NCBI RefSeq assembly: GCF_008974285.1
Contig: NZ_BKZV01000003.1
Span: forward strand, 62,001-126,000
Length of the DNA stretch: 64,000 nucleotides
Reading direction: 5' to 3'
DNA from: Thermogemmatispora aurantia
GTDB lineage: Bacteria > Chloroflexota > Ktedonobacteria > Ktedonobacterales > Ktedonobacteraceae
A program made the translations under genes and the position numbers. Below, piece by piece: positions 60,310 to 62,269 of the stretch; position 1 is the stretch's first letter; each line of letters opens with the position of its first letter. The notes under the pieces are model-generated. The model was not told where the DNA came from. It did no database searches and saw only the letters and a program-made list of their open reading frames with translations.

Positions 60310-60882
60310 TCGCAGTTCATTCCGCTTGCCAAGCGGCCTCACCCTCTTCATTTCACCTCCGGGAAAGTTGCTTATAGGCCCCTGGCAAAAACCAGGGGGG
60401 GATGCTACACTATCCTCAGCAAAGGGAGCCTGCCCCCCTCGCAGGTGAGGGAAGCAACGGCAGGCCAGGTCAGGCCAGTGAAGTGAGTCCAGCGCTGCTC
60501 GTAGAGCGAGCGGCTATCTCATTCTTCACTTTGCCTATGCGTAACGTGTTCGCTTCCAACGGCAGCACCTCGGCGGCAGCTCCTCGTCTGGAGCCGCGAG
60601 CCGCGAGCACATGCCTTGCTCTGCACACCAGCTCGATGAGACGCACACAGCGCTAGCTCGTATTCTTGTTCCTCCGGTTCATCGCTTGTAGGAAGCTCTT
60701 CTCCTCCCTCTTGACTAGAACATATGTTCTATGTTACCCTGGCAGGAGAAGGAGAGAGGAGACGACAGGCGGAAGCCAACACGAGTGCTCCGACCGCTGT
60801 CGCTATTTCTGAAGCACTGCAAAGGACAGTGCGAGCTTGGCTGAGAGACTGACGCTTGACGAGACGAAAGGAGAACCAGGCC
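60310..60882. other. Intergenic stretch with a hairpin and a LexA-box promoter
   Basis: Hairpin CCCCTGG-CAAAAA-CCAGGGG (60379-60398), then the extended -10 TGCTACACT near 60404-60412 with CTGGCA 18 bases upstream inside the hairpin. A frame open from 60402 is unconvincing. The LexA box and the promoter of the next gene lie at 60711-60740. Confidence 0.4.
60711..60740 (+). promoter_or_regulatory. Promoter with Gram-positive-type LexA (SOS) box
   Basis: TTGACT (-35, 60711-60716) and TACCCT (-10, 60735-60740) are 18 bases apart. The spacer contains a 16-bp palindrome TAGAACATATGTTCTA (60716-60731) with GAAC-N4-GTTC, the LexA/DinR site of Gram-positives, also reported from the Chloroflexota genus Dehalococcoides. 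LexA here would block RNA polymerase. Confidence 0.6.
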
Positions 60883-61752
60883 ATGCCTGTACTTGAAGCG
60901 ACCGACAGGCTCACTCCGAAGAGTGCCCTGCGTCATCGTCCTCTGCAATCGGAGAGCGGGTCGGAGCGAGCAGCGGGATCGGTGGAGTCAGTAGAGCCGG
61001 TGGCGCAGCGGGCCTCGCGTCCACGCCCGACGCTGGCCGACGTGGCTTCCGAAGAGATCGCGGAGTGGAGACGGGTCGAGATAAAGGGAGAAGGCCAGAC
61101 TGGGCTGAAGCGCCCGCTGAGGGGGGCGGGCCGGACCACAAGCAGATCACGTGCCACCCTGACAGCGGATCGCCCCACGACGGGCACTCCTGGAGGGCAG
61201 CGGGGCCAGACCGCAGGCGCTGCGCCAGCGCGAGAGGGAAAGACGGCAGGTGGGCGACCGCCACAGACGCGCCGCTGGTTCCAGGCTCATCCGTTGCTGT
61301 ATCTTGGGTTGGGCATGCTCTGCATGCTCCTCCTCTGGTGCCTGTTGCTGCCGCTGATCTCGTGGGGACAGACGACCCTGGATGATCTACGCTACGGGCG
61401 CCCGCGAACCTTTCAGATCGATGCCTTTGTGGGCCACAATGAAGCGGCGGGTATCCCAAGCCACTTCATTGCGCTCAATTTGAACGGCCACATCGAGATC
61501 ATTGAGCTGCCAGGAGGCGATCCGGCCCATGCCCGCATCTATAGCGGTCCCCAGCTCTATGACCCAGACGCCAGTCTGGTGCCGGTGACCCTGAGCTTCG
61601 CCGATGTCAACGGAGATCACAAGCCGGATATGCTGGTGCACTTTCAGGGGACGCGTCTGGTCTTCATCAACGATGGCAGCGCCTTCCGTCCGCTGCGCCC
61701 TGATGAGCGACCCGCTGTGCTCCAATACCTGGAACGCCATCCGAATCTCTAG
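60883..61752 (+). CDS. Single-pass membrane protein of unknown function behind a LexA box
   Basis: 289 residues from ATG 60883 (AAAGGAG 9 bases upstream). Residues 1-135 are disordered and rich in Arg, Ser, Thr and Gly. One transmembrane helix (YLGLGMLCMLLLWCLLLPLISW) lies at about 145-165. The outside domain of about 115 residues has IALNLNGHIEIIELPGG and FADVNGDHKPDMLVHFQGTRLVFINDG, close to FG-GAP/VCBS calcium-binding repeats (DVNGDHKPDM). Such repeats appear in propeller and adhesion proteins, but only one or two copies are present. I do not recognise the family. A perfect LexA box overlaps its promoter, so it may be induced by DNA damage. A hairpin (61781-61811) follows. Confidence 0.72.
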   Translation: MPVLEATDRLTPKSALRHRPLQSESGSERAAGSVESVEPVAQRASRPRPTLADVASEEIAEWRRVEIKGEGQTGLKRPLRGAGRTTSRSRATLTADRPTTGTPGGQRGQTAGAAPAREGKTAGGRPPQTRRWFQAHPLLYLGLGMLCMLLLWCLLLPLISWGQTTLDDLRYGRPRTFQIDAFVGHNEAAGIPSHFIALNLNGHIEIIELPGGDPAHARIYSGPQLYDPDASLVPVTLSFADVNGDHKPDMLVHFQGTRLVFINDGSAFRPLRPDERPAVLQYLERHPNL

Positions 61753-62269
61753 CCAGGGACGAGCGCCGGCGAACGAAAGAGCGGCTCCCTCCTGGAGTTT
61801 GGAGGAGCCGCGTAAGGAATGAGAAGGAAGGGACTACTGTCGCGAGCTGCTGGTGGTGGAGAGCAAGGAGCAGCTCGCGGCAGCCAGTCCCTTCGTCCCT
61901 GGGTACGGGCCTGGACGCTGCCTTCGACTTGGCTCTACTCAGCCAGAGGTGCCGCGCTGGCGCAGTGCCAGGCCGGCGCATCATCCTGTCAGCTCAGTTG
62001 CAGGCCCTCCCTTTCGGTATGTGCGCTGGTACACTGACCCTGACTAACCGTGGGGCACAGGCTCGTCGGCCCAGGGTCAGTCAATCCAGTCGGCTGCAGC
62101 GGAACCGGACTCGCCGACTCGTGAATACACTCCTGACAGCCTCGCGTAGGGGTGGATTAGCTGTCTGGCCAATCAGGCTGATAGCGAGACCCAGAGAGCC
62201 AGCGTTTCTCCTGGCGATATTGCAGGGGAGACAAGCTCAGGAGAACCGCGGGAGGGGAGGGAGAGCGCA
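61753..62269. other. Intergenic stretch with terminator hairpin
   Basis: A bulged stem (GCGGCTCCCTCC at 61781-61792 with GGAGGAGCCGC at 61801-61811) lies 29 bases after the membrane-protein gene and may end its transcript. The remaining 450 bases show no gene; several frames overlap without ribosome sites. Confidence 0.45.

Follow-up and report, generated by a model that had tools for sequence, protein, structure and literature searches.

Within one promoter of the thermophilic soil bacterium Thermogemmatispora aurantia (Ktedonobacteria, Chloroflexota) lies a palindrome of the kind bound by the SOS repressor LexA, and the gene downstream is not a DNA repair gene but one for a membrane-anchored protein. 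This raises the questions of whether the palindrome is a LexA operator and, if so, what DNA damage would bring to the surface of the cell. The window, the whole 64-kb stretch of DNA analysed, lies in contig C3 of the 5.6-Mb genome.

The palindrome and its promoter

The site TAGAACATATGTTCTA (60716-60731) is a perfect palindrome of 16 bp. As the sequence-only reading of this DNA had proposed, it presents GAAC-N4-GTTC in a promoter spacer, between TTGACT and TACCCT, the last base of the former being also the first base of the palindrome. The features of the locus are:

60711..60716, + strand: -35 element TTGACT, taken from the sequence and invariant in six genus orthologs
60716..60731, no strand: predicted LexA/SOS operator TAGAACATATGTTCTA, from sequence, matrix score and ortholog conservation
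60735..60740, + strand: -10 element TACCCT after an 18-nt spacer, read by eye
60869..60873, + strand: ribosome-binding site AGGAG, taken from the sequence and kept in the orthologs where the aligned stretch extends that far
60883..61752, + strand: gene for a 289-aa bitopic membrane protein, from the translation, an AlphaFold2 model and relatives in 29 genomes
61781..61811, no strand: inverted repeat GCGGCTCC...GGAGCCGC without a T run, read by eye after the stop codon

A scan under strict sigma-70 rules missed the window promoter. Its -10 element is largely kept across the genus as TAC[C/T][C/T]T and is identical to the -10 hexamer of uvrA in the same genome, where the recA promoter likewise starts with TTGACT. 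The six Thermogemmatispora orthologs keep the block CTTGACT-nGAAC-nnAn-GTTCTATGTTAC, with the centre of the box variable and GAAC and GTTC invariant, a pattern as would be expected of a dyad operator.

The ATG at 60883 follows AGGAG, which gives a predicted leader of considerably more than 100 nt. This 5′ leader, unusually conserved within the genus, includes the inverted repeat GCACTG...CAGTGC (window 60814-60835), with no Rfam match found in it by an RNA element search. The gene end at 61752, as first reported, is correct, and the inverted repeat beyond it is a possible transcript end which the terminator scan did not pick up. The neighbours in the window are lspA-rluD upstream and a convergent HU gene downstream; in many genera a copy of the window type has rluD, frequently accompanied by lspA, and/or HU as neighbour, a synteny which gives no clear functional hint.

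Boxes of the lexA, recA, uvrA and umuDC loci

The sequence-only reading had made its case depend on whether lexA and recA use another box. In this genome and 28 relatives, lexA, recA and uvrA bear boxes of the same type, in conserved and degenerate versions of the window box; the TAGAAC half is common to the lexA and recA boxes, and one half is regularly degenerate in those of all three genes. The lexA box of this genome (TCGAATAGCCGTTCTA) is located at -75 from the start codon and a second site (CCGAAAATACGTTCGA) at -132, the two flanking the promoter TTGACT-17-TATCAT. Across the relatives, the lexA box reads TNGAATNGNCGTTCTA, with small variants, at a near-fixed position before the gene in 28/29 loci. 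Boxes were found in all 27 recA loci, reading TGGTAC-N4-GTTCTA in 21, i.e. in the rest of the family, and the weak, half-palindromic [T/C]TTGACAGATGTTCTA in the six Thermogemmatispora genomes; the copy in this genome (TTTGACAGATGTTCTA) occupies the spacer of TTGACT-17-TACACT. The uvrA box of this genome (TGGAACGTTTGTCTTA) directly follows the promoter TTGACG-17-TACCCT, and the form NGAACGTTTGT... is present in at least 15 loci. Furthermore, umuD-umuC-like gene pairs bear near-perfect boxes (TAGAACAAAGGTTC[T/G]), those of three genomes comprising TAGAACAAAGGTTCTC, TAGAACAAAGGTTCGA and a cluster that includes TAAAACATACGTTCTA.

A profile search identified a single lexA and a single recA above the cut-off in this genome, the former on another contig than the window gene. 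The LexA protein matches the full LexA profile and aligns end to end with solved LexA structures, including the TIAAGEP cleavage region (AG site), GQSM with the catalytic serine and the Ser/Lys regions. One family genome of 85% completeness (G031) yields no LexA match, and three of the four relatives of the window gene examined there are boxless; the missing LexA may result from genome incompleteness.

Scores and control motifs

A score matrix was built from the lexA, recA and uvrA boxes alone and, as these training boxes were initially located by resemblance to the window motif, it is not fully independent; on this matrix the window site scores 19.8, the best training box 18.3 and the second-best site of the 64-kb window 10.5. 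The independent part is the position of the boxes, which is fixed across genera and makes them credible. A score of 19.8 was attained in 0/60 random windows of equal composition. The perfect form TAGAAC-N4-GTTCTA occurs twice in the genome and nine times across six genus genomes, compared to none for a mirrored control pattern in either set. The palindromic GAAC-N4-GTTC core, in contrast, is found at 34 places in the genome, below the 83 of its mirrored control. Being not enriched, the core alone would prove nothing, and the notion that every GAAC-N4-GTTC is a LexA site was rejected on these counts; only the extended TAGAAC...GTTCTA is informative.

A gene family linked to the box

Relatives of the encoded protein are present in all 29 family genomes, at 3-18 copies per genome and four in the genome analysed, the closest named relative of the window gene being that of Thermogemmatispora tikiterensis (94-95% identity). 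None were found in 18 genomes from other families of the order, and a GTDB-wide scan recovered relatives nowhere but in Ktedonobacterales or unplaced Chloroflexi bins.

A matrix score of at least 13 is reached by 48/91 family upstream regions and by 14/747 background windows, which themselves contain other SOS loci. A box with at least 10/12 consensus bases lies near the start of 55/92 relatives (mirrored motif: 0/92), and approximately 40% of the family genes are without a box. The distribution follows descent: on the protein tree the label 'box' takes 10 changes, versus 28.8 under shuffled labels, and the box is kept in three deep paralog groups (14/14 members in one) and absent from two. 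Throughout the six Thermogemmatispora genomes, boxes are present in three groups, namely those of C1:1374447, C1:1635293 and the window gene, and always absent from that of C5:211982, the latter group representing a natural internal control. The unusual SOS member suspected at the outset thereby expands to an entire family of genes, with a predicted SOS box that is conserved.

The box overlaps or falls inside clear promoters in the family, as seen in the upstream-region scan and the orthologs. Several family promoters take the form TTGAC-box-TACTAT or have two boxes flanking the promoter, an arrangement that reads as a repressor-site layout. At the paralog loci L164, L171, L176 and L185, LexA-like sites are located on both sides of a TTGACA-TACTAT promoter, as with TAGTATTTTTGTTCCA before and TAGAACAAAAGTTCCT after the promoter of L164.

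The encoded protein

The 289-aa product is predicted to comprise a cytosolic tail (residues 1-136), a membrane helix (137-171) and an ectodomain (172-289). Two stretches of the gene encode conserved elements:

60913..60942, + strand: tail motif PxSxxR[YH]R, codons 11-20, with S14 and R17 in 62/64 relatives
61603..61629, + strand: DVNGDHKPD, predicted FG-GAP-type Ca-binding loop, codons 241-249, with D241, D245 and D249 at least 90% conserved

The description as a membrane-anchored, FG-GAP-like protein holds, with FG-GAP_3 in 50/64 relatives, one membrane helix and a confident beta ectodomain; that of the tail as Arg/Ser-rich is corrected, the tail being Arg-rich (20 R, 4 K; net charge +10 over residues 1-133) and mostly predicted to be disordered. 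Its P12-x-S14-x-x-R17 motif is conserved despite this predicted disorder, and R43 is invariant among the relatives; as such, the motif probably binds a cytosolic partner. With a basic tail (+10) and a net negative ectodomain (-5), we infer an N-in/C-out topology for the model, with one membrane segment and the C-terminal part outside.

The ectodomain is modelled by AlphaFold2 at a mean pLDDT of 92 (mostly >90), as two four-stranded groups, eight strands in total, plus a helix at the C-terminus; strands 236-240, 249-254, 257-263 and 268-270 lie around and after the Ca-loop. The FG-GAP_3 match of the window protein itself (residues 227-252; 16.1 bits) is under the Pfam cut-off of 26.9, and the 50 matches among the relatives were counted at E up to 0.1 (best E-value: 1.2e-8). 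No fold match to the model was obtained at E <1e-3. Two-bladed RSL lectins rank first among its structural neighbours, but their best E-values (6e-3 for the full model, 4e-2 for the ectodomain) are not significant, and the TM is ~0.5 by target length. Three RSL chains assemble into a six-bladed propeller, and by this analogy the ectodomain may oligomerise. A sequence search yielded no solved homolog, only one spurious membrane-helix match, and a viral fold library contained no significant match to the protein. A defence gene was rejected, as there is no PADLOC match, and so was a phage origin, given the lack of a PHROG match for the protein and the confinement of its GTDB relatives to the Ktedonobacterales or unplaced Chloroflexi bins.

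Predicted LexA control

We suggest, at a probability of roughly 0.8, that the palindrome is a LexA operator and that the gene is LexA-repressed and damage-induced, encoding a single-pass envelope protein with an outside half-propeller. The sequence supplies the basis: a box that is conserved, lies in the promoter and is akin to the lexA, recA, uvrA and umuDC boxes. That LexA is the binding protein we infer from sequence and structure prediction. In the undamaged cell, LexA occupying the palindrome, between -35 and -10, would block RNA polymerase. Upon damage, RecA filaments would trigger LexA self-cleavage and the gene would be turned on alongside lexA, recA, uvrA and umuDC. The product would span the membrane once, the disordered basic tail remaining cytosolic and the FG-GAP-like half-propeller, of two blades and probably Ca-binding, facing outwards. 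LexA would control three of the four Thermogemmatispora copies in this manner.

What such a protein might do is a separate matter, and one serious candidate role, at somewhat under even odds, is that of a glycan-binding protein or surface adhesin whose copies multiplied and diversified to serve the life cycle or contact (mycelium, spores) rather than a division checkpoint. It is compatible with the LexA-control part of the model, and it would fit the FG-GAP-like blades, the lectins as best, albeit weak, fold matches, the up to 18 copies per genome and the aerial mycelium and spores formed by Thermogemmatispora (PMC5064121). Against it, no fold match falls under the threshold given above, and the conservation of the cytosolic motif points to a partner inside the cell, for which a plain adhesin has no need.

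An envelope checkpoint restraining septation or cell-wall growth during repair is a rather doubtful role, drawn from the analogy in topology with YneA and SosA, in which the tail would contact an internal partner and the ectodomain, perhaps oligomerised, wall material or the divisome. In its broadest form, and no less speculatively, lineage-specific, multi-copy, LexA-controlled half-propellers, each anchored by a single helix and assembling on the outside, would pass the DNA-damage state, via the cytosolic motif, to wall growth or septation of the mycelial Ktedonobacteria. If true, this would constitute a class of checkpoint with no relation to SulA, YneA, SosA, SidA or DidA. The protein, however, has no LysM domain and no lexA neighbour and is far larger than YneA or SosA, and up to 18 copies per genome would be out of the ordinary for a checkpoint protein. 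The surface or glycan-binding alternative is at least equally plausible.

The box might instead be bound mainly by another repressor, e.g. a LexA-like or Xre-type protein with a GAAC-N4-GTTC-like operator, its resemblance to the lexA and recA boxes being convergent or partial. The family boxes are often perfect palindromes where those of lexA, recA and uvrA are consistently imperfect, and short S24-peptidase paralogs are present in some relatives. This genome, however, contains one LexA-profile match only, the half-site, N4 spacing and promoter placement are identical to those of the SOS genes, and near-perfect boxes occur at the umuDC-like operons, all of which render a different repressor improbable and favour LexA. 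A chance palindrome, functionless at this gene, would accord with the many copies of the core, rarer than its mirrored control, but was rejected as extremely improbable by the consensus, matrix, tree, random-window and ortholog conservation tests, the box being retained with a variable centre in six genus orthologs, recurring family-wide at several paralog groups and having a full 12-base form that is scarce in the genome.

Further candidate targets

The genome's other perfect box (locus L024, C1:1447936-1450951; box at 1501-1516) is located upstream of a gene (551-1354, - strand) encoding a conserved 267-aa protein that matches the phage families of unknown function phrog_11717 and phrog_27776, with XdhC on the other side. 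The T. tikiterensis and T. carboxidivorans orthologs are boxed too, and by eye the central motif of the protein recalls single-strand-annealing-type proteins. A DUF1015 gene has an upstream box both in this genome (L025, C1:408157-411172; TTGAACATAAGTTCTA) and in a Ktedonobacter genome (L130; TAGAACCTTTGTTCTA), and may as such be a further conserved SOS target. In two other genera (L124 and L134), the gene shortly downstream of a perfect box encodes a membrane protein that weakly matches a glucosaminidase domain and may be a cell-wall enzyme under SOS control.

Comparison with known systems

The protein resembles FG-GAP/VCBS proteins (PF13517, PF01839) in its DxNGDxxxD loop and blade-like strands, and differs in having only about two blades, fused to a membrane helix and a basic tail, and in its restriction to the Ktedonobacterales. 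With the Ralstonia solanacearum lectin (RSL) its ectodomain model shares two four-stranded blades per chain, at 14-17% identity and a non-significant E-value; unlike RSL, which has no anchor, the window protein is predicted to be membrane-anchored.

The Gram-positive SOS division inhibitors YneA, SosA, ChiZ and DivS commonly cross the membrane with one segment and have their C-terminus outside (PMC6851548). The window protein is alike in its predicted LexA control, single membrane segment and predicted outside C-terminus, but has 289 aa, compared to 77 in SosA, a long cytosolic tail with a conserved motif, a two-blade FG-GAP-like ectodomain and no LysM domain (Pfam). Its gene, furthermore, is located between lspA-rluD and HU rather than beside lexA, and has several copies per genome.

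The operator of Bacillus subtilis LexA (DinR), of the Gram-positive type, is GAAC-N4-GTTC (PMC4234289). The Ktedonobacteraceae box agrees with it in core, N4 spacing, palindromy, promoter location and the presence of versions at lexA, recA and uvrA. The Bacillus box has C...G as its outer bases, whereas these are T[A/G/T]...[A/C/T]A here, and the lexA, recA and uvrA boxes regularly have one degenerate half, unlike the B. subtilis operator. The literature searched yielded no LexA regulon of Ktedonobacteria and no paper linking LexA or SOS to FG-GAP proteins. The operator type is already known; the target family and its expansion appear to be new. The analysis provides a testable SOS motif for the Ktedonobacteria lineage, with an unstudied envelope protein family as a recurrent non-repair target. 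The cell envelope of these bacteria probably changes upon DNA damage and, if confirmed, this would represent either a new DNA-damage checkpoint in mycelial bacteria or a remodelling of their surface by DNA damage.
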